Assembly: GCA_026014735.1 (NCBI GenBank)
Contig: JAOZHT010000003.1
Coordinates: forward strand, 186,001 to 250,000
Source: Candidatus Bathyarchaeota archaeon
GTDB lineage: Archaea > Thermoproteota > Bathyarchaeia > Bathyarchaeales > Bathycorpusculaceae
Length of the DNA stretch: 64,000 nt
Direction: 5' to 3'
Notes under the pieces: model-generated
Database searches by the model: none
Told to the model about the DNA's origin: nothing
The model's input: the letters and a program-made list of their open reading frames with translations, nothing else
Shown: one piece after another, positions 2,261 through 39,464 of the stretch
Position numbering within the stretch: the first letter of the stretch is position 1
How the letters are laid out: every line of letters starts with the position of its first letter
Made by a program: the position numbers and the translations under genes

Positions 2261-2262
2261 AC

Positions 2263-7291: not shown

Positions 7292-7401
7292 TTTGACTCT
7301 CGTATTATTCACGATGTCAACCAGAAAGCCAGCCCAAGAAAAATTAACGCGACAAAATATATTTCATGAGCAATAAGAAAAAAAATGTTTGGGAATATAG
7401 C

Positions 7402-7866: not shown

Positions 7867-7885
7867 TCAAAAAATTTGGTGTTTA

Positions 7886-8329: not shown

Positions 8330-8365
8330 GGTCTTTTAGGTAAAAAAGAAAGGATGAATGCAGGG

Positions 8366-8845
8366 TTACTGCTTCTGTTTTGAGGGGTCAAAGATTCGGA
8401 TAGTGATGCCGTTTTCATCGACGGTTCTTTTGCGTAGTGTTCCGATAGGACAGGGCCGTTTCACGTGGACCTTAGCGACGTCAGATGGGCGATCCGGGAA
8501 AGGTTTAAAGTCACATTTCTCGCATACCCCAATTTTCTCTGGTGCATAGTGCATATCCCAGCAGTCTCGATAAGTTATGATTTCCTTTTCGAGTTCACTG
8601 ATTTTACGTTTAAGACCAGTTACCTCCGAACATATCTCTGCTTTTTCGGCTTCTAAGTCGAATCCAAACTTTTTAGTTAAAAAGCGACAAATCGCTTCTA
8701 AGTCACTGTCGGCTTCACCGATGGCGTTGATCTGTTTGTTTAACTTGTAGATTTCTTGGCTTTTTTCGTCCTTTTTATTCCAGCAGAGCTGACGTTTCTT
8801 TTTTAATTCTTCTTGTTTGATTTCTTCAGGGGTTTTGGTTTTCAT
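8366..8845 (-). CDS. Coiled-coil/zinc element protein (159 aa)
   Basis: The N-terminal 100 residues are charged coiled coil; a CEKC pair near residue 108 together with nearby Cys residues suggests a zinc site. First gene of the leftward trio, divergent from the prohead-protease-like gene at 8900. Such coiled-coil/zinc proteins are common in archaeal mobile elements but their roles are unknown. Confidence 0.5.
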   Translation of the reverse strand: MKTKTPEEIKQEELKKKRQLCWNKKDEKSQEIYKLNKQINAIGEADSDLEAICRFLTKKFGFDLEAEKAEICSEVTGLKRKISELEKEIITYRDCWDMHYAPEKIGVCEKCDFKPFPDRPSDVAKVHVKRPCPIGTLRKRTVDENGITIRIFDPSKQKQ

Positions 8846-8899
8846 GGTGGTTCACTGATTTCTTGGGTTTAAACCCGAAACTGCTAAGGAGACATCGTC

Positions 8900-9865
8900 T
8901 TGGCACAGAAAAATCAATGTACAACGCGGTTTTACGCTTCCGTCTACAGCATCAACGAAGCGGAGCACACCGCCGAATTCTACCTTATGAATACTACTCC
9001 GAATCGCAACGGCTGGGAAGTCACTGAGAAGGGCCTTGCTGAAGCAGCACCCACCATCAAGGGTAAACCCATCGGTATGGGAGTAGGCTACCGCATCGAT
9101 CAGCATTACCCCGATGAGGAATGTATGAACAGCGGCGAATTCGTAGCCTACCAGAAAAATGACAGTTACCTTTTAGCAACCGCGAAAATCACCGATGCAG
9201 CTTCCTGGCAGATGCTTAAAGACAAAAAACTGGCGGCTGTCAGCGTAGTTATCACTTACTACCAGAAACACTGTTCTGGCTGCAATGAAGACTTGATGCC
9301 CTACCAGAGCAGTGTGGACCAGCATCACTGCATCAAAGAAGGAGCTGGACACGAGGTGATATCCAGCTTCATTTTTCACCGCGTAGACTTCGTGGATGTG
9401 CCCGCTTATCCGCAGGCGGGTGTACTGGATATGTCTGCGCAGGCGGTTGCTGAATCAGCGCCGTTAACTGCCTTCGCATCATTTTATCAACAACAAAATC
9501 AATCAGGTGTAAAAAACACACCTGCTATGCATGTTAATGAACTAAAAATACCGCTTAAAGACGCCATAAACGCCCGACGCGCAGAATGGGGCTTTCCCCC
9601 CTCAACCACAGAATTCATAGCCACCGCCCAAGTTAACGACCCCTTAGAAGGAACACTATCGAAAAAGCAACTTAACTTCTTGAATTCAGAATATGAGAAA
9701 GCTAAACTTTACCTCAGCACACACCCCGATAATGCTTTGATGGCGGCGGTTGAGCGTCACCGCATGGAATTGGGGTTACATACCGCCGACTCTTCAAGTG
9801 GCCCCACGAATAGCCTGGATGCAGCGATAAAGCGACGCCGTGAAGAATTGGGCCTCTGCCTCTAA
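8900..9865 (+). CDS. Prohead-protease-like protein (virus capsid maturation)
   Basis: Starts at TTG with the strong ribosome site AAGGAGA at 8886-8892. Residues 1-185 follow the layout of HK97-type prohead serine proteases: an N-terminal strand region, candidate His residues, LAAVSVVI (about 112-119, with a Ser where the nucleophile lies) and FHRVDFVDVPAYP (about 157-169), matching the usual ending of the fold. The family cleaves scaffold and capsid proteins during head maturation. The C-terminal part carries three related helices (about 221-232, 283-294, 308-319) of the form A[IV]xxRRxExG[LF], possibly the scaffold portion. No capsid gene is visible beside it. Catalytic residues were assigned by eye. 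Confidence 0.55.
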   Translation: MAQKNQCTTRFYASVYSINEAEHTAEFYLMNTTPNRNGWEVTEKGLAEAAPTIKGKPIGMGVGYRIDQHYPDEECMNSGEFVAYQKNDSYLLATAKITDAASWQMLKDKKLAAVSVVITYYQKHCSGCNEDLMPYQSSVDQHHCIKEGAGHEVISSFIFHRVDFVDVPAYPQAGVLDMSAQAVAESAPLTAFASFYQQQNQSGVKNTPAMHVNELKIPLKDAINARRAEWGFPPSTTEFIATAQVNDPLEGTLSKKQLNFLNSEYEKAKLYLSTHPDNALMAAVERHRMELGLHTADSSSGPTNSLDAAIKRRREELGLCL

Positions 9866-9948
9866 TCGCGGAGAAAAAAGGAAAAGATGATGTTAGTTAC
9901 TTACTCGGCTTTCCTCAAGTGTAGAAAAAAATGTGGAGAGGCATCCGG

Positions 9949-10284
9949 TTAGCTTTGGACGTCTATGAATTCCGTCACAGTCCACACTTGCGGAATGTTG
10001 CCCTTTGGGTGTTCTTCAACGGTTATCTTGGTCCAGCGTCTGCTTCTCCAGTAAGCTATTACCGCCAACGCGCCCTCTGTTGTTTCAACGTGTACCATGT
10101 AGATGTTTCTTCCACTGCCAAGGCAGCTTAGGCGTATTGGCCCCGCTTTTTTGATGTGGGGGAGCGCGCTGTTTTTTAGGGTTTGCTGTTTCTGGGTTAA
10201 CTGTTTTGGTTTGGTTGGTTTCTGTGTTTTGTCTGACAATCTGATCTCCCGTGAAGTCTTGCATGATTCTGTTCGCTCCTTCAT
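9949..10284 (-). CDS. Unknown basic element protein (111 aa)
   Basis: The first 45 residues are Lys/Gln/Thr-rich and probably disordered; the remainder forms a small beta-rich domain with GRNIYMVHVETTEGALAVIAY and WTKITVEEHP. It follows the helix-turn-helix gene at 10314 on the same strand. It could bind DNA or protein; no family is recognised. A competing overlapping frame (10085-10414) has a less protein-like composition. Confidence 0.45.
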   Translation of the reverse strand: MKERTESCKTSREIRLSDKTQKPTKPKQLTQKQQTLKNSALPHIKKAGPIRLSCLGSGRNIYMVHVETTEGALAVIAYWRSRRWTKITVEEHPKGNIPQVWTVTEFIDVQS

Positions 10285-10313
10285 TTAGTTCAGTTTCTGT
10301 TGTCGTCTGTTGT

Positions 10314-10616
10314 TCACGCTCGGTGAGCGGCTTGGAAACGCCGCATAAACTCGCTGCCGGTCTCCTGTAACTCGAAAGGAAAAACACTGCTACGTCTAAT
10401 AGACAATAAGTCATGGCTTTCTAAGAAGTCTAAATCCCGCTCGACAGTCCAGCGGGAAACGCTTAACGCCTCAGCTGCTTTTCCAACGCTGAATCTTTTA
10501 GTGATGTACCGCAAAGAGATTAATCGTTGACGTCTACGCTGAACATTTAGACTCGCTGACCTCTGCCTTTTTCTTATGATCTTAACGTTAGGTGCACTCA
10601 ATCTCTGATTCTCCAT
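10314..10616 (-). CDS. Winged-helix DNA-binding protein of the element
   Basis: A 100-residue basic protein. Residues 35-75 form a clear helix-turn-helix (FSVGKAAEALSVSRWTVERD) followed by a wing-like DLLSIR segment, as in DeoR/MarR-type regulators. The Arg-rich N-terminus could add DNA contacts. It probably controls element genes. It lies downstream of the MCM-like operon on the same strand, separated from it by about 230 bp. Confidence 0.6.
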   Translation of the reverse strand: MENQRLSAPNVKIIRKRQRSASLNVQRRRQRLISLRYITKRFSVGKAAEALSVSRWTVERDLDFLESHDLLSIRRSSVFPFELQETGSEFMRRFQAAHRA

Positions 10617-10853
10617 GTCTGTGGAACCTCGAAACTTGCAGTTTCTTGCAATTCTGAGGTTAACCTATTCGGTGTTTATCTGCAACAAGCAGAGCAACTA
10701 ACCACGCTTAACTACACAGAAAACCCGTAAGTGTATCTTTTTGTAGCATTTTTCTGTATATGTCGAGAAATGTCCAGTTTTTTTTGATGTTGTGTGATGT
10801 TTCTGGGGTAGGGTTTGGTAGCAATTAAGAAAAGAGAAAGAAAAGTTAGCGTT

Positions 10854-13277
10854 TTATGCTGGGATTGGTGGTTCCTCGGGGTATGGTGGCAGTTCTGGTT
10901 GGTCTTCGACGAATTTCACTCCTTGTGGCTCGTTCTCAAAGCGGTACATATTAAAGCAGTTTTGACAGCTGTAGTATGTTTGGCCGCTGCCCTTGTTGGA
11001 GGTCATTTTGACTTCTGCTTGTACTGCTTGGCACCTGTGACAGGTTTGGGTTTCCATGTATGGGTTGATTCGCCGGTAAAGGATGGTTTCTTTGCCATCC
11101 TTGCCATCCTTGCTATGCTCTAAAATGATGCCCCCTACACCATTTTCTGTTGTGTTACTGTCAGCATTGTAAGAGGTAAAAGAGGAATGGGTTTTGGAAT
11201 TTAATAAAGTGTTATGGGGGGTATCGGTTTGAGGGGTGGCAAGGATAGCAAGCGTGGCAAAATTATTTGTTACCTTATAGGCTTCTATGAGTTTATTCGT
11301 AGAGAAGTAACCTCTTCCACCACGTGCTAAACCTGTTGAGACAAGCGCAGCAACCAGTGGAATTAACTGGTTTTTCTCGGTTAGGTCATAAGTGTTTTTC
11401 AAGTGATCTTTGGTGGTATATCCTGTAGTCACGAAGTCATCTAAGATAGCTATTAGTTTGCTACGTTCGATTGGTGCCCTAGATAATTTTTCTTCTATTT
11501 GCTTAACCAGTGCTTCGACATCATCAGGTGAAAGCTTTTCAAATCGGTGTTTTTGAGCTAAGATGTTTAAGCCTGCTTTGCTGTACTCTTCGGTAAGGAA
11601 TTTAACGATTAAATCCACATGTTCCAATGTGACTGTCACTGTTTCATAGTCATCGGTTGATAGGGTCATGTTTGCTGCTGCGATGCTTAGTCTTGCAAGT
11701 TTAAACTTCATGTCGGCTGAAACCAATGGTATAGGCGCATAGTAGAATGTGTTGTACAGTTCTGTTGCTTTTGATAAAAGATAACTTAGTGCATCATTTG
11801 TGAATACTACGGTTGTGGTGTTGCTCCAGCACCATCTTAACGATTCGCTTAGTAGGGTATATTCTGGTTCTGGTTGTGTTGTAGGAATTTGATTGATTTT
11901 CTCGGGCGGTACATCTCGGCTATCGACAAATACGGCTAAGTCTCGTCGTGCGATGGTTGTGGGGTCTGCAATTGTAGGGTATGCCTGTGCTGGATAGAGG
12001 AAGTCGCTTAGTTGTTTGGTGGGGTATCCGGGGGTTTCTTTGTCGAGAGCATTGTAGATTTTGATTTGTCTGGTGTGTGCTGGTACTATTGCTTTTGCGG
12101 CTTTGCTGATGTTTAAAATGCCATCTCTTTCGGCTTCGGCGGTTTTTGCCCATTCCCATGGGGGAATTTTGTGGCAGCCATCCATAGCTAAGAGTTTACA
12201 GTCCATTAATGGTAGATAGCCCCAGTCAACGAACCATGCGCCATTTTCCATCTGTGAAACTGCGCCTATTACGCCTGCAATGCTTGCGGTTTCGGCTGAG
12301 ATTACCATGCCTGCGTTTAGGCTTCTTGCTATTTTTTTGACGGTTTCACTTTTGCCTGTAGTTGAGTCACCGATGATATCCGCAAGGCCCCAGCCATGTT
12401 GTATGTCATTATATAGTTCGACTCGTAAGGGCGAAAAATAGGTTAGGTATACGGCTGCCGCAACATTTCTGCGTCCTATTATCTGTGTATAGAGTTCAGC
12501 GTTATCCAACACCCAATTCCAACGCTCTTGCATTGATAAGCAGTCGAATTTGTTTTTTAGTTGGGTTAAAGCGCTTATGTTGAAGTGTTCTGTGGCTTCT
12601 GGAAACTCTACTTTATACGCTAATAGGGTGGTGCGTTGTGTTTTGGGGTTGGGTAAGGGGATGCCTGTTAGGTTGATTTTGGTGGATGATTGGAAGGTCA
12701 AGGGTTTTTCGGTTACGATGTAGATGTCATAGTGTTTGTATTCTCTACCTTGTTCGTCGATTTGTTTGTTGCCATCTTGTTTGATGGCTTGGACTGGTGG
12801 GCGTACTCGTATCAAGTAAGCCGTGCGATATTTTTTGATTCTTAGGTTGGTTACTTTGCAGTTTTCATCCATGAATAACCGTTTTAGTCTACGTTCCTGT
12901 GCTTCAAGGGCTATATCGATTAACGCAAGGTTGATGGGGTCTTTGGGGTTGATGGTTGTTGATGTGGGATAGTTTTCATACTCACCATCTGGGCCGCTTG
13001 TTTTGATGAGTTTATCGGCTGCTATCTCGGCAGGTATTGGGTAGCTTATGCTGTTGCTGGAAACTATACCTGGCACCGTGACGGTTTTGCCGATGTATTG
13101 TGGGTTTTCAATATCGTTAATGTGGTTAAGAAGGATGGATGGTTCCTCTGCTTTTTCTGCCTGTTCTCTTTCTTTGTACCATTGTTGTCTGGCTTCGTTT
13201 ATGGCTGTTTTTTCTGCGTTTAAGAGTTTATTGAGAATGGGAGATGTTGTTTCCGTCTGCTGTGCTGTAGCTGTCAT
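10854..13277 (-). CDS. MCM-like replicative helicase of the mobile element
   Basis: An 807-residue protein. Residues 60-230 resemble the MCM N-terminal OB region. The AAA+ core has Walker A GDSTTGKS (303-310), a Walker B position reading LLAMDGCHKI (362-371, where MCM proteins have I-D-E), the following SKA segment, and ARRDL (443-447) at the arginine-finger position. A winged helix follows at about 600-680, and a CxxC...CxxC zinc ribbon near 745-780. MCM proteins unwind DNA at forks and are often carried by archaeal plasmids and viruses. The Walker B glutamate is replaced by Gly, which may alter ATP hydrolysis. It ends an operon with two small genes upstream (13295, 13475). Confidence 0.75.
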   Translation of the reverse strand: MTATAQQTETTSPILNKLLNAEKTAINEARQQWYKEREQAEKAEEPSILLNHINDIENPQYIGKTVTVPGIVSSNSISYPIPAEIAADKLIKTSGPDGEYENYPTSTTINPKDPINLALIDIALEAQERRLKRLFMDENCKVTNLRIKKYRTAYLIRVRPPVQAIKQDGNKQIDEQGREYKHYDIYIVTEKPLTFQSSTKINLTGIPLPNPKTQRTTLLAYKVEFPEATEHFNISALTQLKNKFDCLSMQERWNWVLDNAELYTQIIGRRNVAAAVYLTYFSPLRVELYNDIQHGWGLADIIGDSTTGKSETVKKIARSLNAGMVISAETASIAGVIGAVSQMENGAWFVDWGYLPLMDCKLLAMDGCHKIPPWEWAKTAEAERDGILNISKAAKAIVPAHTRQIKIYNALDKETPGYPTKQLSDFLYPAQAYPTIADPTTIARRDLAVFVDSRDVPPEKINQIPTTQPEPEYTLLSESLRWCWSNTTTVVFTNDALSYLLSKATELYNTFYYAPIPLVSADMKFKLARLSIAAANMTLSTDDYETVTVTLEHVDLIVKFLTEEYSKAGLNILAQKHRFEKLSPDDVEALVKQIEEKLSRAPIERSKLIAILDDFVTTGYTTKDHLKNTYDLTEKNQLIPLVAALVSTGLARGGRGYFSTNKLIEAYKVTNNFATLAILATPQTDTPHNTLLNSKTHSSFTSYNADSNTTENGVGGIILEHSKDGKDGKETILYRRINPYMETQTCHRCQAVQAEVKMTSNKGSGQTYYSCQNCFNMYRFENEPQGVKFVEDQPELPPYPEEPPIPA

Positions 13278-13294
13278 TATCTAAAGCTCCGTTG

Positions 13295-13459
13295 TTATGA
13301 AAGCGCTGTTATTGCTTGCTGCAGAGTGGTTTTAAGTTCCGCTATGATGGTGAGTTGTTGTTCGTGGGTGCTGGGGGCAGCGTCGGTTGCTCTGGGTTGC
13401 TGCTGTTTGGGCTGTGAGGTTTTTTTTCCGAAGTTATTGGAGTCTGTGTTTGGCTGCAT
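13295..13459 (-). CDS. Small Gln/Thr-rich protein between RHH and MCM genes (54 aa)
   Basis: A 54-residue reading frame starting MQPNTDSNNF and ending in a short helix (LTIIAELKTTLQQAITAL). It begins 15 bp after the ribbon-helix-helix gene, with GAGGTG as ribosome site, and ends 17 bp before the MCM-like gene. The Gln-rich first half is probably disordered; the terminal helix could dock a replication partner. Unrecognised. Confidence 0.5.
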   Translation of the reverse strand: MQPNTDSNNFGKKTSQPKQQQPRATDAAPSTHEQQLTIIAELKTTLQQAITALS

Positions 13460-13474
13460 GGGCTTCACCTCTTT

Positions 13475-13621
13475 TTATGGTTCCGCTAAGAAGTCGCGGA
13501 TTAGAACTCTTACTGCCTCTGCCGTGGTTACATAGCCTTTCTGACGTGCTTTGTCTTCGAGGGGCTGTTTCCATTCTATCGGAATCTTGATTTGGAGGAG
13601 ATTTAAGTTACTGTTACTCAT
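13475..13621 (-). CDS. Ribbon-helix-helix DNA-binding protein (48 aa)
   Basis: Reading frame of 48 residues beginning MSNSNLNLLQIKIP. The strand LLQIKIP, helix EWKQPLEDKARQKG and helix TTAEAVRVLIRDFL match the ribbon-helix-helix (CopG/MetJ-like) fold. It heads the leftward operon with a small protein and the MCM-like helicase, and is divergent from 13741. A palindrome at 13701-13716 in the shared upstream region is a plausible operator for autoregulation or copy control. Confidence 0.65.
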   Translation of the reverse strand: MSNSNLNLLQIKIPIEWKQPLEDKARQKGYVTTAEAVRVLIRDFLAEP

Positions 13622-13700
13622 TGCTTGTCACTGTGAAACCTTCGGTTTTTTTGTTAATGCTAAAACAATACGCTTTTATGGGGGTCACCGTTTAATAATG

Positions 13701-13716
13701 TGGAAAAATATTTCCA
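13701..13716. promoter_or_regulatory. Palindromic operator candidate
   Basis: TGGAAAAATATTTCCA has arms TGGAAA/TTTCCA around AATA. It lies between the divergent ribbon-helix-helix gene and 13741, next to TTTAATAA (13691-13698), a TATA-like element. Candidate binding site for the adjacent ribbon-helix-helix protein. Confidence 0.45.
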
Positions 13717-13740
13717 TAATAATTTCCTGAGGTTAAATGG

Positions 13741-14415
13741 TTGAGGAAGCGTGGACGGAAACCTAAAGCGGCTGTCAAACCAAGAAGCCAAATTGACCGT
13801 TTAAAGTATCTTAGGCAAACTAATGCTTTAGGTAAGTCGATTGAGGAATTAAAAGATTTGATTGCAGAAGTGCAGAGAATATCGAGTAGCCCTCCTGATG
13901 ATTTTGCGGAGATGATTACAGAAGACCATAAACGGATAATTGAGGATGTGGTTTATCCAGCGGTTACACGTGGAGTTAACCTAATAGGTATAACTCGTGC
14001 TCGTGAACCCGTTGAGTTTGGCGCGAGTGAGGATACTGTAACTGATCTTTATGGTGTGATTGAGCGCCATCTTATAAGTCGAAGAACCTGGACAGATACA
14101 TTACACAAGTTTCCACCTGAAGCAATTAGGCATGCTATTAGGCGGGCTTGGTTTTACTTGTTGGGAGATTGTGATTGGGGAACTGAATTTGAACATTTAA
14201 AAGAACATGAAAACATCGAAGATTTTATTGATGATGTGATTAATCGGAGTAATTTGAAGCGTGATTGGGATAAAGACGCATATCAGAAGGCATTATCTCA
14301 CCTTGAGAGACAAGCGGAAGAACTGGGGTTTGTGATTGTTGATCGTAGAGAGGCTGAGATGTTGCAGGCTTTAAAGGTGCAGCGCTTCAAGACTCAATCA
14401 TCAGTGATTGCGTAG
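13741..14415 (+). CDS. Unknown helical element protein (224 aa)
   Basis: TTG start preceded by GAGGT at 13729-13733. The N-terminal 25 residues are very basic (RKRGRKPKAAVKPRS), an AT-hook-like patch, followed by a helical, acidic body of some 200 residues with no cysteines. This suggests a DNA-binding protein with an oligomerisation domain. Its stop codon abuts the integrase stop. Divergent from the replication operon. No family recognised. Confidence 0.55.
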   Translation: MRKRGRKPKAAVKPRSQIDRLKYLRQTNALGKSIEELKDLIAEVQRISSSPPDDFAEMITEDHKRIIEDVVYPAVTRGVNLIGITRAREPVEFGASEDTVTDLYGVIERHLISRRTWTDTLHKFPPEAIRHAIRRAWFYLLGDCDWGTEFEHLKEHENIEDFIDDVINRSNLKRDWDKDAYQKALSHLERQAEELGFVIVDRREAEMLQALKVQRFKTQSSVIA

Positions 14416-15522
14416 TCAACTCTGTTTAAGTTGGGTTTCCAGCGCTTCAACCTTCCTCAATAATGCTTCCAGTGTTGGTTTCGCTGCCTCCAACGTATTC
14501 AGCCGTGCTTGCAACTCCTCAAGTTTGCGGTCTTTCTGTTCCCGGTCCAAAATCAACTTCTTAACGGTTTTACTGCTAACGGCGGCTCCAATGTTTAAGT
14601 AAAGTTCATAGGCTTGCGGGTAACGTTCCTCAATCTCCAGCATCAACGATTGCAGATAAGTGCTATCGCTGACAGGTATTGTTTTGCCAACGATGTATTT
14701 GATTTGAAACTCGTTTAAGCCGGCCCTGCTCAGGGTAGACATGACCCAGCCCCGTATCTTATGCCAATGCACCCGTCCAGTCGTGACAATTCGGGCTTCC
14801 CCGGCGATGCGTTTTAGATACTTGTTAATTGATGTCGTGCGTATGTCAAAGATGTTGCTGATTTGGTTACATGCTTCTTTACCTGTTCGTCTGCGGAGTC
14901 TTTTACCCTCTGTTTCATCTAAATATTTGCCGACCCACTGGATAGCCAGGGGGTTTAATACGCCGAGTCTGGGGGCGCCAGTTTTCTGCCTAAACGTCTT
15001 GAAATAGTAGTATTCTCTTTTTTCGCTTCTGGCTTTAGCGATGAGGCTCTTCATAAATTCGCGTTCGAGCTCCAATGTTGCGCCTATTTCCCAGCCGAGG
15101 CTGGTTCCGAGTGCAAGTAATGCTTTGCCTTTGGTGTCCGCGGCGTTAAACATTCTTGTGAAGTCGTCGGTGGTGAATTCGTGGCTGGTGGTGTCGGGCT
15201 GGATTTTTTTGCGTTTATGCTGCCAGTTTATTGGTTGATCCAGATAGGTTAGGAAGCTGCTGAGTGCTGTTAGGACGCCGCATGCGGTGTTGTCGGGGCC
15301 TGTGAATGTGTTTTGGTAGATGAGGGCGAGGTGTCGTTTGTCTTTGTTTGGTTTGGATAGGTAGGTTTCTATGGGGTGGTCTGAGGACTGGTTTTTCTTT
15401 TTCAGGTAGTCTGTGTACCAGTTGAAGAATCTGCTTATGGCGTACCAGTAGATTCGTTTGGTTGATTCTCTGCGGCATTCTTCTAACCATTCAGCGATTT
15501 GGGGATGGTTTGTTAGTTCCAT
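14416..15522 (-). CDS. Tyrosine recombinase/integrase
   Basis: A 368-residue protein with an N-terminal SAM-like DNA-binding region (1-110), a catalytic domain (about 120-310) and a coiled-coil tail (320-368). The box II pattern HWHKIRGW is recognisable, and GKTIPVSDSTYLQ fits the end of the catalytic region with the tyrosine near 290. The first catalytic arginine is not evident: the usual GLRISEL position reads GWEIGATL. It is the rightmost element gene, 50 bp from a candidate att site. The function is insertion and excision of the element; the altered arginine position could mean a divergent or inactive enzyme. Confidence 0.75.
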   Translation of the reverse strand: MELTNHPQIAEWLEECRRESTKRIYWYAISRFFNWYTDYLKKKNQSSDHPIETYLSKPNKDKRHLALIYQNTFTGPDNTACGVLTALSSFLTYLDQPINWQHKRKKIQPDTTSHEFTTDDFTRMFNAADTKGKALLALGTSLGWEIGATLELEREFMKSLIAKARSEKREYYYFKTFRQKTGAPRLGVLNPLAIQWVGKYLDETEGKRLRRRTGKEACNQISNIFDIRTTSINKYLKRIAGEARIVTTGRVHWHKIRGWVMSTLSRAGLNEFQIKYIVGKTIPVSDSTYLQSLMLEIEERYPQAYELYLNIGAAVSSKTVKKLILDREQKDRKLEELQARLNTLEAAKPTLEALLRKVEALETQLKQS

Positions 15523-28906: not shown

Positions 28907-31594
28907 TTACCCAAAGAAGGTAAACATCGAGTTTACGCCCGTCCATGAGAGGACTCGCCATGGCGAGTAGAAGTTGTAGAAGTTAAACGAGTAAGTCGTT
29001 GGTGCAGGCGTGGCTGTCGGGGTTGCTGTTGACTTGACGGTCGGTGTTGGAGTTGGCGTCTTAGTGGGTGTAGTTGTGGATGTTGGGGTGGCTGTAGGGT
29101 CGGTTGATGTTGAGTTAGAGGGGTTTTTTGATGTTGTCGACGTCGTTTGGGTGGGGCTCGGAGTTGCTGTCGGCGACGAACTGGCTGTTGGGGTCGGTGT
29201 GGCTGTCGGAGTAGCTGTAGGTGTTGGAGTGGGGGTAGCGGTTGGAGTTGGGGTGGGGGTAGGTGTTGCGGTTGGCGTAGCTGTTGGTTTAGGTGTGGGG
29301 GTTGGGGTGGCTGTTGGTTTAGGTGTCTTGGTCGGCTTTGGCGTAGCTGTTGGAGTAGGTGTAGGAGTTGGAGTCGACGTCGGCGTTGGTGTTGGTGTCG
29401 CGGTTGGAGTTGGCGATGGAGTGGCTGTAGGTGTAGGGGTAGCGGTGGGTGTGGCTGTTGGGGTCGGAGTGGCTGTCGGAGTAGCTGTAGGTGTTGGAGT
29501 GGGGGTAGCGGTTGGAGTTGGGGTTGGGGTAGGAGTTGCAGTTGGCGTAGCTGTCGGTGTGGCCGTAGGAGTAGGTGTAGGTGTTACAGTCGGCGTGGGG
29601 CTTGGAGATGGTGTAGGAGTAGCTGTCGGAGTTGGAGTTGGCGTCGTGGTGGGAGTAGAGATATCTCCACTCGATGATAGCTGAGCATTAGTTATGTTGT
29701 AGCTGCATGAAATCCCTTTCATCCCAGGGCGTAGGCTCCAAACAACCTGGCTAACATGGTTTAATGGAACGCCCACATTTCTCAAGTCAATGGTGTAATG
29801 TACAGGCGCTGAAGAGTTAGCCACACGCATGATGGTGCCGTCCTGGAGCGTAACCGCATGGCCATATTTGGTTGAAAGGTCACAGGCTGATTCCTCTGAG
29901 GGATTCCAGCCGTTGTTCGTCGCATCAAGAATAATTATAGATAGACCTGCGTGATCTTGAAGGTCTCCCTGCCAGAACTCGTCAGCCCAGAAATCAAAGG
30001 ACAAGTAGGGCGTGTTTCTTAGGTCCCAGTAGGGGTAGCCGTTTCCGTTAGCGATGGTGGGGTAACAGCCATAGCAGTCGCCTGGGATGTAACCCGTCAC
30101 GCCCGTCGCTGTTTGCGTCTGGGTTACTTTGCCCGTGCTTGCATCTGCTGGAACCGGCGTGATCCAGTATCTGCCGTTTAAGGGGTTAATGGTTGGGCTT
30201 TCCAAGACGGGTTGGGTGGGCGTTGGCGTAGGCGATGGAGTTGGAGTGGCAGTCGGCGTTGCCGTAGGCTGGCTTGTCGGCGTTGGAGTTACGGTTTCGC
30301 CGGCGTAGGCAGAGATGAATGATTGCCCCATTGTGTTAGGAGTATAGCCGCTTGACAGCATAGTTTCTCCAGAGAAGATGGCGCCTAAACCCGAATCGCT
30401 CAACCAATAATATGCGCATGCACCCACGCCTAAGTCGCGTTGAGCCAAAATCAGGTTTTGCCACCAAGTGCAATCGTTTTGCTTGTTGGTGGAGCTTGAT
30501 GTGCATGAGCCTTCTTCGTTGATAACTAAGGGGGCATTGACTCCCATGCTGCTGATGGCTGTTTGCACCTGCGATTTGAGGGTGCTGTAATCTTTTGCCC
30601 AGTACTTAGTTAGGTCAGTTGGCGAATAATAGTAGAAATGGGTTGTGTAGACAACGTTAGTTGGGTGCAGGTGGCTGTCGATGTCCGCTGCCCAGCTCAG
30701 GTCAGAGCCATAGCTGTTGGGGTAATAGCCCATTCGCCACTGCATAAAGATAAGGTTGGTTGCGCCTGTACCACGTATGGCACTATACATGGTTTGCAGG
30801 TATGTCATGTAGCCGCTTGGAATAGCTTCCGTATCTGCGCCGGTCCAGCCGGGTTCATTCCATGCCTCAAAGATTGCGTTAGGGTAATCTTTTAGGTTAT
30901 TGGCCATATCTGTCCAGAACCAGCTCCAAAACGCCTGCTCATTGTTACCGTAACCTGCATCAGAGAGGAACTCCTCGCCGGCATCGTCCCATCCCAAAAT
31001 CGGCAAACCCTGCCAGGCATAAGAGTCAGTTGCATATGGATCTATGTTAGAAGAGCTCGATGAGGGCGTTAGCATATAGGGCACAATATTAACGTAGATG
31101 CCATATTTGTTAGCTTCCTGGCATAGCGTACGCAGATATCCGCGGGTGCTAATGGGGGTAGTTTGGCCTGCGTAGTTTGAGTCTTCTTGTGAAGGCGCGA
31201 TGTTATCGCGGTAATACCAGCTGGGATATACAAACACGCGAATCATGTTCACATGCCACTGGCTCTGCAAAACCGAAAACGTCTGATCCATCACAGACGT
31301 GGGATTAGCATTCCATTGGTCACTCCACGCATCTTTTCCGCCTGACCCCCAAAGTATCAGGTTAGGCGCCATACCTGCAACGCCAACCCCCCGCAGATAA
31401 ATGGTGTTGCCGTTGGCATCCAAAATGTAGGAGCCGGACGTGTGAAGCGGCGAAGCCGTTGCTGCTTGAACAGTCGTTGTCGTGAAAACTGTAAGCATGC
31501 TTACAAGGAAGATTATGGAAAGACATATCGCTAAAGGTTTAGAGGTCTTTTTTTTGTGCAGAGTTTGCACTGAGGGTTTTAAATGTGCTCTCAT
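28907..31594 (-). CDS. Secreted GH5 glycoside hydrolase with Thr/Pro-rich linkers
   Basis: The ATG at 31594 follows GGAAGAGAG and a TATA element; the upstream ATG at 31633 lies before the expected transcript start. A Sec signal (basic n-region, hydrophobic core, VQA|A) is followed by a GH5 barrel of about 380 residues with acid/base EAWNEPG (Glu near 247) and nucleophile VINEEG (Glu near 360). A Thr/Pro linker leads to a 190-residue beta domain that may bind carbohydrate, then a second linker of nearly 200 residues of TPTPTATP type, then a hydrophobic 25-residue tail. Likely an extracellular cellulase or mannanase. The long linker contains an in-frame 270-bp-offset duplication (see findings). 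Confidence 0.8.
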
Positions 31595-31633
31595 ACGCTC
31601 TCTTCCTGAATGGATAGATATCTTGAGATTCAC

Positions 31634-31927: not shown

Positions 31928-32875
31928 ATGAAAAAAAAGGTCTTAGCGTTAAGCGTAATTTTTTTGTTAACCAGTATCTTTATTACACAAATCTCGTCTG
32001 TCGGAGCGGTGGGGGAAGGCAGTTGGATAACCGGTTACTCGATCTATGATGCGCAGACTGAGCAGCTTTTGGCACAGTACAATGCGCAGACTAACACAAC
32101 AGATAGTTATCAGCCGATTTTGCCTGGAGCCAGCATAGAAATAGTTTTTGACGTTAACATCGTTGCTTCTGGATCAGGTGATCTCAAGTTAACTTCTGGC
32201 TTGTTAAAGCCGTCTTCCGGTCCATATTGGTCGCTTGAAAGTGACGATTACGAGTTAGGTTCAAGTTTTAGCCCCAACACCGCCTCGACGAAATTCAACT
32301 GGGTTGAAGGCCAATTCACCATGGCACTCTACGGCAAGATTCCCTCAAGCACCAACAACACCAAATCGATAGTTGCGATAAGCTTGTTTGGTCCATCAGG
32401 AGGAAAAGCGCTTGACAAGATCGTAATAACCTCGACCAGCGCAGAAATGGATAACTTCCTGATTCTTCTGAGCGAAAAAGAGGATAAGCTGCAGTCGATG
32501 GCCGATAGCGGCGTGGACCCCCTCTTTATAGAAATCTACACAAATATCCTCAATGCCGCTCAGGATGTGGCCAGCAACGGCGACGTTGAAGGCGCAGTTG
32601 CTATGCTCGATAGCTTGGACACTTCAGGGGAACCCGCAAGTTCAGCCATGCAAATGGTGCTGCTGCCCCTCGTCGGTGTTACCGCTGCGATTGCAGTGGT
32701 TTTTGTAGTCCTGTTCTTTAGGGCACGAGGCAAAGTCGGCTACTTCCAGCTTGTTGTGGAAGACCAAATCAAGGATCTTGAGGGGTTGTCGATGCGGGCG
32801 GCAAGGATTGACCGCTCTATGGCGGCTAACCTTGAGTCAGTTAAAGATAGACTAAAAAGATTAGTTGGGATGTGA
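31928..32875 (+). CDS. Signal-peptide/single-TM protein of the tubulin-like locus
   Basis: 315 residues: Sec signal (1-27, ending GAVG), a beta-rich outer domain (28-160), a helical region (165-235), one membrane span (about 241-265, VLLPLVGVTAAIAVVFVVLFF) and a cytoplasmic helical tail of about 45 residues. Topology: large domain outside, tail inside. The tail is placed to recruit the cytoplasmic tubulin-like protein encoded directly downstream in the same operon. The outer domain is not a family I know. Stop TGA is followed at once by TAA. Confidence 0.65.
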   Translation: MKKKVLALSVIFLLTSIFITQISSVGAVGEGSWITGYSIYDAQTEQLLAQYNAQTNTTDSYQPILPGASIEIVFDVNIVASGSGDLKLTSGLLKPSSGPYWSLESDDYELGSSFSPNTASTKFNWVEGQFTMALYGKIPSSTNNTKSIVAISLFGPSGGKALDKIVITSTSAEMDNFLILLSEKEDKLQSMADSGVDPLFIEIYTNILNAAQDVASNGDVEGAVAMLDSLDTSGEPASSAMQMVLLPLVGVTAAIAVVFVVLFFRARGKVGYFQLVVEDQIKDLEGLSMRAARIDRSMAANLESVKDRLKRLVGM

Positions 32876-32881
32876 TAACCT

Positions 32882-35575
32882 ACGCGAATCTACCAAAACA
32901 GCGTACAACTAGTAGGGCTCGGATCAGCAGGCACAAACATCGTTGAGGCTTTCTTAGCCAACAAAAAAACCAAGGAACTAATAGAGAACGACCTTACCCG
33001 TCTCTCTCTTTTAGCCATCGACATCGCCGACCCAGAAATTCGAAGTCTCCAAGAAACACATGAACGGATCGCTAAAGCCCTCGCCAAATCAGGCGTACCC
33101 AAGGAACGCATGCGCCTAATCGCTGAATCCGTAAAGTTCCCCACAGCCGAAGCCATGTTTGACTTTATCAGCCAAAAATACGGTGAATATGTTGTAGGTG
33201 ACGGCGCTAAACTCAACAATTATGTTCCCTGGCTGCAATCCACTATGGCGGTTCCGCCTATGGCAGGCGGCGCAGGACGCAGACGCGCACTCGCCAAAGC
33301 AATCTACGCTCTTAATTACTACCAACTGGGCATCATAAGAAACTGCATCACGGCCTTCAAAGAACAAGCCCTCTCATCCATCGTCACCCCAACCGTTGTT
33401 ATGGTTTACGGTTTAGGCGGCGGCACCGGCAGCGGAGTATTCTTTGACTTCGCAAGGCACCTGCGTAAGGTTCTCGGTTCAGGTGTGCCCATAATCGCCT
33501 TCGTGATTACACCCTGCGGTGGAGATGACCCTCCCGCTAAGGGCTGCTCTGCATTCGTCGCCATGAACGAGCTGTCGCTGCTGCTAAACAAGGACTACAA
33601 CGAGCATGTAATCAGTGAATTCGGTGAAATGTACCGTAACCCCCTCAATGCCCTGGTTTATCTGCCTCTGCTTCCGGCGTTCTCTAAAGTCGGCAACATC
33701 GTTAGTGCCCGAAAAGAAATGGATGAAATGGTTGTTGACCTGCTCTATGTGCTTATGGATTTCGACCTTGCAGACTTAATGGGCGGCATCGGCACCGAAG
33801 TTGGCTTAACCTCAAACTCTGCCCACACAATCGGCATGTACAAAGTCATCTACCCCGTGGAGGACTACATTAATGCGTTTAAGCTGAACTTTGAGGGAAT
33901 GCAGCTTCTGCAGGAATCCCGCAAAGAAAAACTCTGCATCCTCGACGAAATCCAAACTATCGTGAAGGTTGACTATGACTTAGTACGGGAGCTATTCAAG
34001 AACTACTACATAAAAAGCGGAAACTTTGATGAGGAGCAGTTTGAGGAGAAACTCAAAAGCATCGTCAATAGCAACCCGCGCCTCGAAGACGATATCGAGT
34101 TGCATGTGAAGGGCGTCGAGATTCAGGCTAAAAACTGGTTGGAGGAAATCATGAAGTTCCTCTCCACCATCAAGCTCATGGGTAAAATCGGCCCCATAGA
34201 GGAAGCCATCATTAACCTGTCGCTTAGCAAAGAAGGCTCCCGGAGAATCGATAACCTGGAAACGCTGCTGACAACTCTGACAAAGAACTATCTGGACTTC
34301 TCTGAACGAAAAGCTGACATCCTCGAGAGGCTTAAGCAGCTGATTCCCAGCTCGCAGGTCTTTACGCTTCGCCAAAAGAAGGTCCTTGATGACTTGGTGA
34401 ACATCGCAGAGGTATCTGAGAAGACCCTTAATTTGCTCAAGTTCTACGATGAAACCCGCTACTTAACCGACACGCTCATTCGCTACTACGAGGTTCTGCC
34501 TGAATCCGAATTGGAGTTGCAGGAGCTACATGACGTCCAGAAAGAACTCGGAACCCTCTACTTAGTTATCCAGCTGATGCTACGCACGCCAGGCGACGAG
34601 GCTAAGATGATTGATGAGCACCTCACCTACATCAACGAAATCCTGTCTAAGCGCTTGGCGAAGCGAGGCGACTTCGACAACGAGGCACTCCGTGTGGCGG
34701 AAGTCAAGAAACGCAAGGAATTCGATAAGCACAGACTGGATATACAGGCACGCAAATTCTTTGGCTCCAAGCGTTATGCACGCGAGCAACTGCTAAATAT
34801 TGAACGTGACCTCAGGCGGGTAGCCGAAGAGGAAGCCATCGCGCTGGAAAACCTCGATAAAGTAGACAGCATCTTAAGGCTCTATGAGAAGCTTGCCAAG
34901 CGCTTTGAATTAACCTCGGAGTACCGCAAACGCCTAAACAAAATCGTCGATGCCTACACCGAATACAAAGCCCAGATGGCTGAGATAGCTGCGCCTAAAC
35001 GTTACTACGAGAAATCCGCTGACTTAACTGAGCATGAGCAACTAAAGATAATTTTTAAGATACTGACCGAGCAGGAGGAAACCTTAACCCGCGAGGTAAT
35101 CTACAAAGACATCCTCGACATGGACCACTTTAAAGACTACATAAAAAGCGTTGTCCGAGCATTCAAGACCCCCACTATCATGGGTTACAAGCCCACCTAC
35201 AGAACCGACTACCTCTGGGTAACCGTTTCTACGCCGCCAAAAATGTGGACCGAAGATATGTCACAGGAAATCTACACGGCGCTGGCAGGATACGTTACAA
35301 GCGAAGTGTCCCGAACAATCACTGTCCGCGTTGTGGAATCACGCGATCCATGGATCACCAGAGTGCTGGTTGTGGGTGGACGCGGAAAACCCGAAGACAT
35401 GGAGGCTTTCGACGAAATGCAGCTGCTATACAGCAAATCCAACGACTTTGAACGCTACCTCTCCAGATCATACCTGCTGGAGCATGGCGTGCATGCAACA
35501 AAAATCATCAAAGACATCAACCAAGCAAACGGTTATGTGCCCGCTTCAGCAAACGGCGAACGCAACAAAAAATAA
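32882..35575 (+). CDS. Large tubulin/FtsZ-superfamily GTPase with helical C-terminal region
   Basis: About 897 residues. The nucleotide-binding T1 loop VGLGSAGTNIVEAF (near 32912-32953) lies upstream of the first ATG (33110), so the true N-terminus is earlier. No ATG, GTG or TTG exists in frame between the TAA at 32876 and this motif; ACG at 32882, a frameshift from the GTG at 32872 (which overlaps the upstream stop), or a sequence error could explain it. T3-like GGAGRRRALA and the tubulin signature GLGGGTGSG (near 33408-33434) follow, then MDFDLADLM at a T7-like position. The last 500 residues are charged helices. Probably a GTP-dependent polymer-forming protein with a built-in scaffold domain. 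Confidence 0.7.
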   Translation, partial: TRIYQNSVQLVGLGSAGTNIVEAFLANKKTKELIENDLTRLSLLAIDIADPEIRSLQETHERIAKALAKSGVPKERMRLIAESVKFPTAEAMFDFISQKYGEYVVGDGAKLNNYVPWLQSTMAVPPMAGGAGRRRALAKAIYALNYYQLGIIRNCITAFKEQALSSIVTPTVVMVYGLGGGTGSGVFFDFARHLRKVLGSGVPIIAFVITPCGGDDPPAKGCSAFVAMNELSLLLNKDYNEHVISEFGEMYRNPLNALVYLPLLPAFSKVGNIVSARKEMDEMVVDLLYVLMDFDLADLMGGIGTEVGLTSNSAHTIGMYKVIYPVEDYINAFKLNFEGMQLLQESRKEKLCILDEIQTIVKVDYDLVRELFKNYYIKSGNFDEEQFEEKLKSIVNSNPRLEDDIELHVKGVEIQAKNWLEEIMKFLSTIKLMGKIGPIEEAIINLSLSKEGSRRIDNLETLLTTLTKNYLDFSERKADILERLKQLIPSSQVFTLRQKKVLDDLVNIAEVSEKTLNLLKFYDETRYLTDTLIRYYEVLPESELELQELHDVQKELGTLYLVIQLMLRTPGDEAKMIDEHLTYINEILSKRLAKRGDFDNEALRVAEVKKRKEFDKHRLDIQARKFFGSKRYAREQLLNIERDLRRVAEEEAIALENLDKVDSILRLYEKLAKRFELTSEYRKRLNKIVDAYTEYKAQMAEIAAPKRYYEKSADLTEHEQLKIIFKILTEQEETLTREVIYKDILDMDHFKDYIKSVVRAFKTPTIMGYKPTYRTDYLWVTVSTPPKMWTEDMSQEIYTALAGYVTSEVSRTITVRVVESRDPWITRVLVVGGRGKPEDMEAFDEMQLLYSKSNDFERYLSRSYLLEHGVHATKIIKDINQANGYVPASANGERNKK

Positions 35576-35659
35576 CCCCTTTCCCCTTTCTTGGGAAAAA
35601 TTTTTGACGGCTAGAAAGCTCTAGGTTGCTAATCTTACATTAATTCAGCAATACTTGAG

Positions 35660-37039
35660 CTAACTTTCTTTTATTTCCGTTTTTTCAGCCGCAACCTCAT
35701 TTTCAGGTGAAGGTAAATCAGCCGTCTCAGGTTCTGCTTCAGGCCGACTGGCTCCCTCCTCGGGGCTTAGTGGTTGCGCGTCACTAATCTTTTCCTCTGG
35801 CTGAGGGGCCTCTGCTTTTTCGGTTACCTGCTCGGCAGTTGCTTGCGGCGGCGGGACCTCTACAGTCTCCACCTGCTGCAGGTTAAGGTCCATGTTTATC
35901 CGCCAATCCTCTGTCAGGTAGCCTTCCTTAACTGCTCTGCGCTTAAGCTTCTGCACTTTTGCTTCAAACTCTTGGAACATCTGGGTTTGGTCAAAGCCGC
36001 CGATGAAGAGCACAGCATCGATGCGGTCGCTGGAGTCGTCGCTGTAGATTGGCTCAGAAATATGGATGGATTGAAGCGCGGTTTTCTCTTTAAACCAGTT
36101 AGTTATCTCTAGCTCGATTTGAGCCCTTGGAATCTTGTCTTTCAGATGCAGGGGCATACGTAGCAGCACATAGAGCAGTGAGGCGCTGGATAAGTCAAAG
36201 GTTGAAAGGGGCTTAAGCAGCACAGCGTTAAGCATGTTGCCTAGGGAACCGTAGATTTTGTAGCTTGCCCCCGTTACCGCTAAGGCACTGAATAACTTCA
36301 CGTTAAAGGTACGTGACAACTCGGCGATCTCAGGCACCAGCAGCTCCTTATCCAAAAACACACTCAGCAGGTAATTTACAACCGCGTTGCCCCTGAGCGG
36401 TACGCCTTTTCGGTCTACGCCCTCATAATTCTCCAGTTGGTCTCTGCTTAAAAGCAACACCGTGGAGCCCTCGGTTGCAAGACACATCTGCAGGGCCGAG
36501 TAAGCGTTGAAGTGGGCGTCTGCTGGTTGAATTTTGGAGGGTAAAACCGCTATGGATAGGGAATCGATGCTTTGGGCTTTAAACTTGGCTGTTAAACTTG
36601 GAATGGCGGCGCTTCCCACACCGTCGGAGATGGATGCGAAGAATATTGCGCCTCGGAGTTTCTCGGCGGATTTCTTCTTTAAGCTGTCGGTGATGCTATG
36701 GTCCTTCGCCATCGCAGGCAGCACGTTATACCAGAAATGCGTGTCTACGTTTGCGTCCTCAAAGCCTATGACTAAATGGGGGTTGTAGCCATCAGGTACC
36801 CATTTGTAGATGTCATCGCTGGATTTCTCCATGAAAATGGGCAAGACACCATCGCGGTAAACGTCTGCCTCCTTAAGGAGGGCTTTTATGGGGTATTCGC
36901 CGATGCAGATGATTGCCTGTTTAGGCAGCAGAGGTTTTAGGGATTGGATATGTTTTTCGATGCATGTTAGTATGTTAAAGGAGCCTTTGCTGTCCTTCAT
37001 ACGAGGTACCTGCATAAGCTTTAAGAGCAGTATACTCAA
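35660..37039 (-). CDS. Putative degenerate tubulin-fold protein with acidic disordered tail
   Basis: 459 residues; ATG at 37039, but internal ATGs at 37015 and 37000 are possible since the divergent gene starts only 22 bp away. Order of segments resembles the tubulin fold: strand AIICIG near 43, FFASISDGVGSAA near 132 where tubulins have GGGTGSG, VLPSKIQPADAHFNAYSAL near 163, and FDLSSASLLYVLL near 280 at a T7-like place. The GTP-binding glycines are lost, so it would not bind GTP normally. The last 80 residues are Glu/Pro-rich and disordered, like an FtsZ linker. Fold call is by eye and uncertain; context supports it. Confidence 0.45.
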   Translation of the reverse strand: MSILLLKLMQVPRMKDSKGSFNILTCIEKHIQSLKPLLPKQAIICIGEYPIKALLKEADVYRDGVLPIFMEKSSDDIYKWVPDGYNPHLVIGFEDANVDTHFWYNVLPAMAKDHSITDSLKKKSAEKLRGAIFFASISDGVGSAAIPSLTAKFKAQSIDSLSIAVLPSKIQPADAHFNAYSALQMCLATEGSTVLLLSRDQLENYEGVDRKGVPLRGNAVVNYLLSVFLDKELLVPEIAELSRTFNVKLFSALAVTGASYKIYGSLGNMLNAVLLKPLSTFDLSSASLLYVLLRMPLHLKDKIPRAQIELEITNWFKEKTALQSIHISEPIYSDDSSDRIDAVLFIGGFDQTQMFQEFEAKVQKLKRRAVKEGYLTEDWRINMDLNLQQVETVEVPPPQATAEQVTEKAEAPQPEEKISDAQPLSPEEGASRPEAEPETADLPSPENEVAAEKTEIKES

Positions 37040-37061
37040 AATAAGGTTTTAGGTAAAACGC

Positions 37062-39464
37062 TTGAAAAAGCCCTCGCTTAAGGTCTCCAATATAAGCACC
37101 TGGAACAAAAACAGAAAGAAAAAGGCCAAGGAAAAAGAAGAGTTGCTGCGCAGCACCGAAGGCCAAGGCATCAAACTGTTCACCTTGGTGATTACGCTGG
37201 TAGCGATGGCGCTGGGCATGTCTTACCTTTCGCTGTTTCCTCAGCCCCTGCCAATTTTGCTTGCGGCGTTGGTTGCTTTTGCCACTTATAAGCAGCCCAA
37301 ATTCGGTATGCCCATCGGCGGCGTCATCCTGGGTTTGGGTTTGCTGTATCATCTTTCCGAGCTGTATTTTCTTTCATTTCTCGGCGACATTCAGGTGCGC
37401 GTGGCTTTTCTGGTTGTCTGGATGACGCTGTTTATCTGTTTACCCATAGTTTTTAACCGCTACAAAAGCGCCCTCGCCATCGACTTCGGTATATTGGCGG
37501 TGGTTTCGCTTTTCTACGCTCCCATCTATTTTCTGGCTATACCTTTGATTATTGCTTCCGCGGTGTACTTTAAGAAATATGTTGGGTTAACCATCATCTA
37601 CTATGTCCTGCTTTCGGTTCCGCTGCAGCTAGCCCAATACTACAATTATATTTTCGACATTGCGCGAGATGACTGGTGGGTTGAGGCAGGTTCAGCGCCG
37701 CCACTGTTTGTTCCATTAACCGACATCGCCAAAGACCTGACTGTTTCACTCGGGCAATTCCGCCTATATGACATGTCAAAATTCATTTTCGACATAACAG
37801 GGCAACTCACCTGGGTTCCTGACTGGAACGGACGAACCCTAACCGACGCCTTCGCGCAGTACCTAGACTCCGTACCGGGCATATTCATGTTCATAGTGAT
37901 AGTGGCTGGACTAGCCGTGACGCTTGTCTTCTTCACGCGTTTACTTGTCAGCGAAGGAATCCTGGGTTCCCGCGACAGATTCTTCCTTTGCTTCACCGCC
38001 GTGATTGCCGCGGCAATCATATTCATCCTGTTAAGTGCCCTCCAGAAACCCTTAGCCTTCAGAGCAGACGTCGGCGTTACCACGATGGCGCTTGGCATCT
38101 TTAGCACTTTCCTGCTTACTCTGCCGGTGCTCTTCATTGAACCAGCGCCTAAGCCGCAGGCGACAAACCAGGAGATAATCGACAAAACCCAATCGCTGCT
38201 CGATAAAATCGTGGCTCTTGAAGCAAGCATTGGTTTAGCAAAAGACAGTGTCCCCGTGGTTGTTACTTCGCCGCAGGGCAAAGCCCTGGTGCTAAAGGAC
38301 ACCTCATCAGATATCCTCAAAGCCGCAACCCTCAAGCTGCTAGACCAAGCCGACATAAACGAAAAATTCAACCAGTTAGGGGTGCTTGAAAAAGACCGGG
38401 AAGCCATCGAAAACGAGCTTAACGGCATCTTAGCGGAATACCAGATTTACTCCATCGGGGAATTCGCTAACTGGACGGGTAAACTTAGGGCGGCGGGACT
38501 CAAAATCAGAACCAGCGTTAATGTCGATTTCCAGAAGGAGATGCCTCTGGATCAACGCATCGAAGCCATCAAGCAAATCATGGATGGCGGCAAGGCGCTT
38601 GTAAAGGAGGTTTCTGACTCGATGGATCCAATCTATGGCATTATCCGTCCACTCTATGATCAGACGTTGCCGCCTAAATGCTACGCGGTGGAGTATGCTA
38701 ACTCGAAGCTGGATCAGAAGCAGGCGCCCTGGATTGCCCTTGAAGCCCTCTACGGCGCCCTCAACGGCTGGAAACGACAGTACGGCAGCCAAATTCAGCA
38801 GACCATGAAGTACCTGCAGACTTCGCTTGTTCCCATCGCGGAGTTGAGTCGCCAAAGCATGGTTTTGCCCGCTGTCTTCGGTGAGGACGCGGAGAAGGTT
38901 TTGGGTTACGCTAAAAGGGCTGAGGGCATCAAGCAGCTGGCGCAGATGCGGGCGGAGAAATATAATCTTGACGTGTTAGACATTGTTTCTCTCCGCGACG
39001 ACGTGGTCGGGTTCATTGAGATGGCTAACGATGTGCTTTTGATGCTTTACCGCGAGGTTGTTGCGGAGGAAGAAGCCATCGAGGGGTTGCTGCCCACCAA
39101 GGATTTCATGTGGCAGAAGAACGAGTCGCTGCGGTCGCGGCTGGAGGCGGCAACTGAGCAGATGAGTAAACCTGAGGCTCAAAGCATCAACTTGGTTATG
39201 GAGCGGCTGCCCCGATACCTTGGTTACATCGACGAGGCGGTGCAGACGCTGGCTTCGTATGCTGAACGTAGGGAGTTTTTGATGAATTATCCGCTTGCCG
39301 CCACCGCCATTGAAGAGCAGCTTAAGCTGAAGCCGAAGCTGTTGCCCTCCGATTTGCCTTTCCGCCCTCATTTTGCAGCGGAGTACCTGCGGCTCTACTA
39401 CACCACCCGTTTCGGCGAGTACATGTTTGATAAAGAGGAGCTGGCGCTGCAGAAGCGGCCGTAA
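37062..39464 (+). CDS. Polytopic membrane protein with large helical cytoplasmic domain
   Basis: TTG start. The 800-residue protein has a basic N-terminus (NRKKKAKEKEELLR), nine to eleven membrane segments between about 35 and 365, then a soluble 430-residue domain rich in helices (370-800) without known motifs. The positive-inside rule puts the N-terminus and probably the C-terminal domain in the cytoplasm. It is divergent from the putative degenerate tubulin-like gene and belongs by position to the tubulin-like locus; a membrane receptor or anchor role is inferred. Confidence 0.65.
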   Translation: MKKPSLKVSNISTWNKNRKKKAKEKEELLRSTEGQGIKLFTLVITLVAMALGMSYLSLFPQPLPILLAALVAFATYKQPKFGMPIGGVILGLGLLYHLSELYFLSFLGDIQVRVAFLVVWMTLFICLPIVFNRYKSALAIDFGILAVVSLFYAPIYFLAIPLIIASAVYFKKYVGLTIIYYVLLSVPLQLAQYYNYIFDIARDDWWVEAGSAPPLFVPLTDIAKDLTVSLGQFRLYDMSKFIFDITGQLTWVPDWNGRTLTDAFAQYLDSVPGIFMFIVIVAGLAVTLVFFTRLLVSEGILGSRDRFFLCFTAVIAAAIIFILLSALQKPLAFRADVGVTTMALGIFSTFLLTLPVLFIEPAPKPQATNQEIIDKTQSLLDKIVALEASIGLAKDSVPVVVTSPQGKALVLKDTSSDILKAATLKLLDQADINEKFNQLGVLEKDREAIENELNGILAEYQIYSIGEFANWTGKLRAAGLKIRTSVNVDFQKEMPLDQRIEAIKQIMDGGKALVKEVSDSMDPIYGIIRPLYDQTLPPKCYAVEYANSKLDQKQAPWIALEALYGALNGWKRQYGSQIQQTMKYLQTSLVPIAELSRQSMVLPAVFGEDAEKVLGYAKRAEGIKQLAQMRAEKYNLDVLDIVSLRDDVVGFIEMANDVLLMLYREVVAEEEAIEGLLPTKDFMWQKNESLRSRLEAATEQMSKPEAQSINLVMERLPRYLGYIDEAVQTLASYAERREFLMNYPLAATAIEEQLKLKPKLLPSDLPFRPHFAAEYLRLYYTTRFGEYMFDKEELALQKRP

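Follow-up and report, generated by a model that had tools for sequence, protein, structure and literature searches.

Four adjacent genes of a Bathyarchaeia genome, here called A, B, C and D, form a set that is inherited together and probably encodes an undescribed membrane-bound cytoskeleton. B and C are members of the tubulin/FtsZ superfamily, and A and D carry predicted transmembrane (TM) segments. The four open reading frames lie at 31928-39464 of the window, i.e. the whole stretch of 64,000 nucleotides that was analysed (Table 1), and the locus is more than chance, since dozens of genomes retain the set. The host genome (2.9 Mb, 99.3% complete) holds each of the four genes in a single copy, and the nearest named relative of protein B is Candidatus Bathycorpusculum termitum. 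The B family and its predicted link to membranes are already known: in 2010, Makarova and Koonin placed FtsZl1 (Tubulin_2) at the centre of a system that they predicted to remodel membranes (PMC2875224). A first, sequence-only reading of this DNA knew of no described system with this gene set, which is only partly right in view of the B family, although the set of four appears undescribed.

Table 1. Features of the four-gene locus (coordinates of the window)
Feature	Coordinates	Strand	Basis or remark
Gene A, type I membrane protein	31928..32875	+	signal peptide, variable ectodomain, one TM segment, conserved cytoplasmic tail
Cytoplasmic tail of A, candidate tether for B	32714..32872	+	consensus
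GATGTGAT, Shine-Dalgarno-like element	32869..32876	+	upstream alignment of 22 homologues; overlaps the A stop codon
Gene B, FtsZl1/Tubulin_2 protein, 897 aa	32882..35575	+	PF13809 match
ACG start codon of B	32882..32884	+	aligned homologues
T1 loop of B, GLGSAGTN	32915..32938	+	G12, L13, G14, G17 invariant in 34 sequences
T4 loop of B, GGGTGSG	33416..33436	+	G179, G180, G181, G183, G185 invariant
T7-like catalytic loop of B, DFDLAD	33758..33775	+	between H7 and H8 of the model
Helical/coiled-coil insertion of B, residues ~326-770 (~440 residues)	33857..35191	+	AlphaFold secondary structure
Strand-helix-strand-strand segment of B, residues 778-835	35213..35386	+	AlphaFold topology
Gene C, tubulin-fold protein without GTP glycines, disordered C-terminal tail	35660..37000	-	AlphaFold, Foldseek
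T4 position of C	36608..36628	-	SDGVGSA in place of GGGTGSG
Gene D, polytopic membrane protein	37062..39464	+	9-10 hydrophobic segments

Conservation and rearrangement of the gene set

A scan of the genome collection with the B alignment returned 47 loci from Bathyarchaeota, Thaumarchaeota/Nitrososphaerales and Chloroflexi/Dehalococcoidia bins. Over 59 loci, B was accompanied by A in 54 of 55 testable cases, by D in 40 of 43 and by C in 35 of 43, counts that include related genomes and do not represent independent events. The eight testable loci with no recognisable copy of C may be cases where C is dispensable or too diverged to recognise. Bathyarchaeia show the order A-B-c'-D, with C reversed, and keep it even where the flanking genes differ, while the order in Nitrososphaeria and Chloroflexota is A-B-D-(X)-C with A, B, D and C co-directional. 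The search for the neighbourhood in relatives, proposed beforehand as a check, found the set conserved even through rearrangement and across domains. That the genes stayed together despite the rearrangement supports most strongly the view that the four proteins work together.

Nitrososphaeria and Chloroflexota carry an extra gene X (~325 aa) next to C, as does, judged by eye, the archaeal genome G528, which is a single contig (L126:12196-13170, L129:12109-13086, L138:12107-13171, L187:12390-13121). It is located between D and C in many Nitrososphaeria and Chloroflexota loci, lies on the opposite strand in some archaea, and was not seen in the Bathyarchaeia cassettes. Its product consists of a helical part and an N-terminus with weak bacterial PH/GRAM-like matches only. 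In G528, B is split into two frames (L187:6484-9167) within an otherwise intact A-B-D-C cassette and may be decaying or affected by a sequencing error. Two Nitrososphaeria cassettes are adjoined on the opposite strand by a membrane-anchored protein (L126:14624-16633, L142:13078-15147), with a transglutaminase-like domain in the L126 copy.

The occurrence of B is patchy, with matches in 22 of the 101 genomes searched among relatives and, across the phylum, in 31 of the 398 genomes sampled (E <= 0.001, some of these matches being weak). Chloroflexota examples come mostly from metagenome bins; one is on a record titled chromosome (CP070819.1), where B matches over ~505 residues only. Moreover, the B tree pairs one 'Bathyarchaeota' bin with Nitrososphaerales, and Chloroflexota with Nitrososphaeria. 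Both the patchiness and these pairings might be expected from a mobile or defence island, i.e. genes that travel together and protect against viruses or plasmids. Yet we consider this very improbable given the long syntenic inheritance in Bathyarchaeia, where many relatives also keep the flanking genes, the lack of PADLOC family matches for any component, and the failure to find a nuclease or other effector domain with Pfam and NCBIfam.

Two further observations concern the surroundings of the set in the window. Directly upstream, the minus strand encodes a glycosidase-like secreted protein that contains a very long Thr-Pro repeat (28907-31633), with homologues at the same place in several relatives, not all. 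The region 460-15522 looks like an integrated element, with a large structural-type protein with collagen-like repeats (4002-7100), a replication-type protein (10854-13277) and a tyrosine-recombinase-like protein (14416-15522).

Candidate membrane anchors A and D

Protein A had been read as a signal-peptide/TM protein with a cytoplasmic tail, and this description was borne out. It has one TM segment (residues 244-262) with a KR-rich inner side, an ectodomain with few conserved residues, and a cytoplasmic tail (residues ~273-314) that is the best-conserved part of the protein. The tail consensus VEDQxxxLExLxxRASRIDxxLAxxLExxKDxLKxL is common to archaea and Chloroflexota. For D, the polytopic topology with a cytoplasmic helical domain of ~430 residues was likewise confirmed, and the family alignment revealed a conserved C-terminal motif, EFLLNYP..DLPV..EYL.LY. 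No named family was matched by A (Pfam, NCBIfam) or D (Pfam, PADLOC, NCBIfam), and PDB relatives of D were generic coiled coils only.

Protein B, an FtsZl1/Tubulin_2 family member with a T7-like loop

B matches PF13809 (Tubulin_2) with an E-value of 8.2e-15 and 55.3 bits, well above the cut-off of 27. It is not a canonical FtsZ, as TIGR00065 gave no match and the PF00091 score of 30.1 bits stays under the cut-off of 33. Structure prediction had been named in advance as the test on which the tubulin assignment could fail, and both B and C were modelled as tubulin/FtsZ folds. The AlphaFold model of B, built with 34 homologues, reached a pLDDT of 84.6 and a pTM of 0.74, with low confidence at residues 125-147 near T3. 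It places an FtsZ GTPase domain with T1, T3, T4 and T7 loops, running to H7 and strand S7, ahead of the helical insertion and a final strand-helix-strand-strand segment, and Foldseek matched it to TubZ (1.8e-5), FtsZ (8.5e-5) and CetZ2 (1.4e-4), with too few aligned columns to span the insertion. T1 and T4, already noticed in the letters, are present, with the invariant residues given in Table 1. At the T7 position, where FtsZ has NxDxxD, B has DFDLAD, of which F294, D295 and D298 are invariant in 34/34 sequences, archaeal and bacterial.

What had been taken for a 500-residue helical tail is indeed a helical region; in the model it is not a tail but an insertion followed by an alpha/beta segment. 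This last segment is a candidate second half of the FtsZ-type C-terminal domain in the model. Profile comparison of it with FtsZ or C by hhalign gave no signal, so that an arm inserted in the activation domain is a model-based proposal. In the model, an FtsZ-like domain at the N-terminus is followed by an extended coiled coil and then a C-terminal domain, in agreement with the architecture described for FtsZl1 (PMC2875224). In 2010, elements past H5 could not be located in FtsZl1 and its polymer-forming C-terminal half was not recognised (PMC2875224). A superfamily study of 2023 omitted FtsZl1/Tubulin_2 because these tubulin homologues had no recognised polymer-forming half and scattered neighbours (PMC9871819).

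A conserved ACG start codon

An ORF finder begins B at 33110 and thereby loses T1, and there is no in-frame ATG, GTG or TTG 5' of T1. The aligned sequences strongly support the ACG at 32882 as the start of B. Among 22 close homologues, the window included, the same codon is ACG in 20, ATG in one and TTG in one. ACG accounts for 8.8% of the Thr codons in these genes, and codon use is mixed at all 17 other invariant Thr positions. A Shine-Dalgarno-like element, GATGTGAT, precedes the ACG by 5 bases, its likeness to GAGGTGAT being judged by eye. ATG or TTG serves as the start in Nitrososphaeria, in Chloroflexota and in the Bathyarchaeia family that is more distant, so the ACG arose within one family-level group. 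Joining of A and B by stop-codon read-through or frameshift was considered and rejected because the frame of the ACG relative to the A stop differs between genomes. A literature search for ACG starts in archaea returned no relevant paper. Selection would here have kept a non-standard start codon, which is rare, and standard annotation cuts these proteins short at the nucleotide-binding loop.

Protein C, a tubulin-fold protein that probably lost its GTP loops in archaea

C had been described from the letters as a protein with the segment order of B and lost GTP glycines. The analysis found a tubulin fold in which the T1 and T4 glycines are missing, and the start of C was moved from 37039 to 37000 as the most likely position. 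The AlphaFold model (pLDDT 79.4, pTM 0.75) shows a complete tubulin fold, with CetZ1 as the best PDB match (Foldseek 4.2e-15, TM 0.77 on target), and the C family profile matched the PDB tubulins AtubB2 (5.7e-6) and CetZ (1.7e-5). No named family was found. C of the window stays under the PF00091 cut-off that Chloroflexota orthologues pass.

The GTP loops of C are lost stepwise, graded by lineage in the sequences compared. An intact T4 (GGGTGSG) occurs only in Chloroflexota orthologues, Nitrososphaeria keep T1-like glycines and not T4, and Bathyarchaeia have neither (in the window, GEYPIK at the T1 position). Because Chloroflexota C retains GGGTGSG, the ancestral system probably comprised two nucleotide-binding tubulins, of which the archaeal C lost its site. 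Chloroflexota and Nitrososphaeria C also share a zinc-ribbon-like N-terminus (CxxxH..C..C). In the tree, C forms one clade apart from canonical and thaumarchaeal FtsZ, with long branches that leave between-group relations unsure.

Two closer relationships were rejected. Apart from the superfamily that they share, direct homology between B and C was limited to a weak profile match confined to the T4 region. Orthology of C with thaumarchaeal FtsZ was suggested by profile matches, but the tree, with its long branches, puts those proteins with canonical FtsZ.

Relation to cell division

No canonical FtsZ was found in the host genome, where PF00091 picks out B and C only, and ESCRT-III/Snf7 homologues are present on another contig than the set. 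This fits the earlier claim of a system distinct from FtsZ-based division. The missing FtsZ, together with tubulin folds and membrane anchors, might also point to a division system, either a substitute for FtsZ or a helper of ESCRT-III (Cdv) in these archaea. However, the ESCRT-III homologues lie elsewhere, B is missing from many close relatives, and B coexists with canonical FtsZ in several others (e.g. G007, G013, G014, G029), which makes this reading improbable. Given that B is patchy and that several relatives have both proteins, the system is optional and does not depend on FtsZ, a point against a general role in division.

Proposed mechanism

We regard it as moderately probable that the four genes encode one membrane-attached tubulin-type machine operating as outlined here. 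The modelled folds of B and C with their PDB matches, the invariance of T1, T4 and T7, and the linkage of A, D and C in two gene orders argue for a single machine, as do the single copy of all four genes, the conserved A tail, the gradual loss of the C loops, the patchiness of B and its ACG start. The FtsZ and ESCRT-III findings suggest that it does not serve general division.

Tubulin/FtsZ proteins form GTP-driven filaments, in which the T7 acids act on the GTP of the adjacent subunit. According to its model, B would bind GTP through T1, T3 and T4, and by analogy with FtsZ it would polymerise head to tail, so that the site of each subunit is completed by the T7 acids of its neighbour. The helical insertion may jut from the filament as an arm, the likely contact by which the conserved A tail and the cytoplasmic domain of D would keep B against the inside of the cell membrane. 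C would be a subunit that does not hydrolyse GTP and serves to cap, space or regulate the filaments of B, having descended from a GTP-binding partner that may still be seen in Chloroflexota. Translation of B from the ACG, in coupling with the end of gene A, would limit how much B is made, and the whole would shape or pattern the membrane or a surface patch. Polymerisation, contacts, stoichiometry, purpose and membrane tethering of the B/C machine are what we infer; the sequence-only reading, which presented a membrane-tethered polymer system of four, fits the joint inheritance of the set and went too far on polymers and tethering.

The main rival holds that B is a GTP-controlled switch or scaffold without long filaments, which together with C forms a defined oligomer that gates or assembles an A/D membrane complex, for instance in transport, secretion or surface display. 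Such a role would suit two membrane proteins, one of them with a large ectodomain, and a C without nucleotide loops, and it recalls the unrecognised polymer-forming half of FtsZl1 and the transport or signalling function proposed by a reviewer of that study (PMC2875224). We nevertheless consider it unlikely, as the T7 acids of B are invariant and both proteins are modelled with the fold of tubulins that polymerise.

Comparison with known systems

The main texts consulted on FtsZl1 and the tubulin superfamily contain neither the fixed set of four genes nor the conserved ACG start, and they describe neither the C family, in which the loss of GTP binding can be traced, nor the assignment of T7. 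B resembles FtsZl1 in its N-terminal FtsZ-like domain, long coiled coil, C-terminal domain and predicted membrane link (PMC2875224; PF13809), but differs in its identifiable T7 loop and its fixed partners A, C and D. The cassette lacks the vWA, P-loop GTPase, kinase or OmpA genes of FtsZl1 operons: Pfam detected no vWA, P-loop GTPase or kinase domain in A, C, D, X and the gene at 39541, and wider flanks were assessed by ORF lists. A or D may overlap with the archaeal neighbour families A1-A2 of that study. The locus supplies fixed partners, a T7 catalytic loop and a fold model for a protein family that has been puzzling since 2010.

A second kind of FtsZl1, like the SSO1376 type of Sulfolobus, was observed in genome G332 (L188:6552-9707), next to a 769-aa helical protein. 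It shares the Tubulin_2 domain (PF13809, 5.6e-17) and a helical region with B, whereas it carries N-terminal membrane helices on the same polypeptide, has other neighbours, and is only marginally similar to B (E 1.4e-7).

The archaeal cell-shape tubulins CetZ, the best fold match of C (4b46, 3zid), bind GTP, unlike the Bathyarchaeia C without T1/T4 glycines and under the PF00091 cut-off. Thaumarchaeal degenerate FtsZ (Nmar_1262, PMC3684127) is comparable as an FtsZ homologue that lacks the GTP motif and belongs to an archaeon dividing by ESCRT, yet it groups with canonical FtsZ, and A, B and D are absent beside the copy examined in Nitrosopumilaceae-like genomes (L194:6032-7030). The related copies L182 and L183 have the T4 variant AGKAGSA, as reported for Nmar_1262. 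With C comes a second tubulin family, in which the disappearance of the GTP loops is traceable through living lineages.

More distant analogies are BtubA/B and alpha/beta tubulin pairs, which are two-tubulin systems, B and C being very unequal in size and sequence, and FtsZ with its membrane anchors SepF, FtsA or ZipA, of which no homologues were recognised here. We hold, tentatively, that a two-tubulin membrane-anchored cytoskeleton may be common to archaea and Chloroflexota, with B as a GTPase bearing a coiled-coil arm within the tubulin fold, C as a GTP-binding partner turned dead subunit in archaea, and the amount of B set by a conserved ACG in the Bathycorpusculum family. A and D are candidate membrane anchors in archaea without FtsZ.
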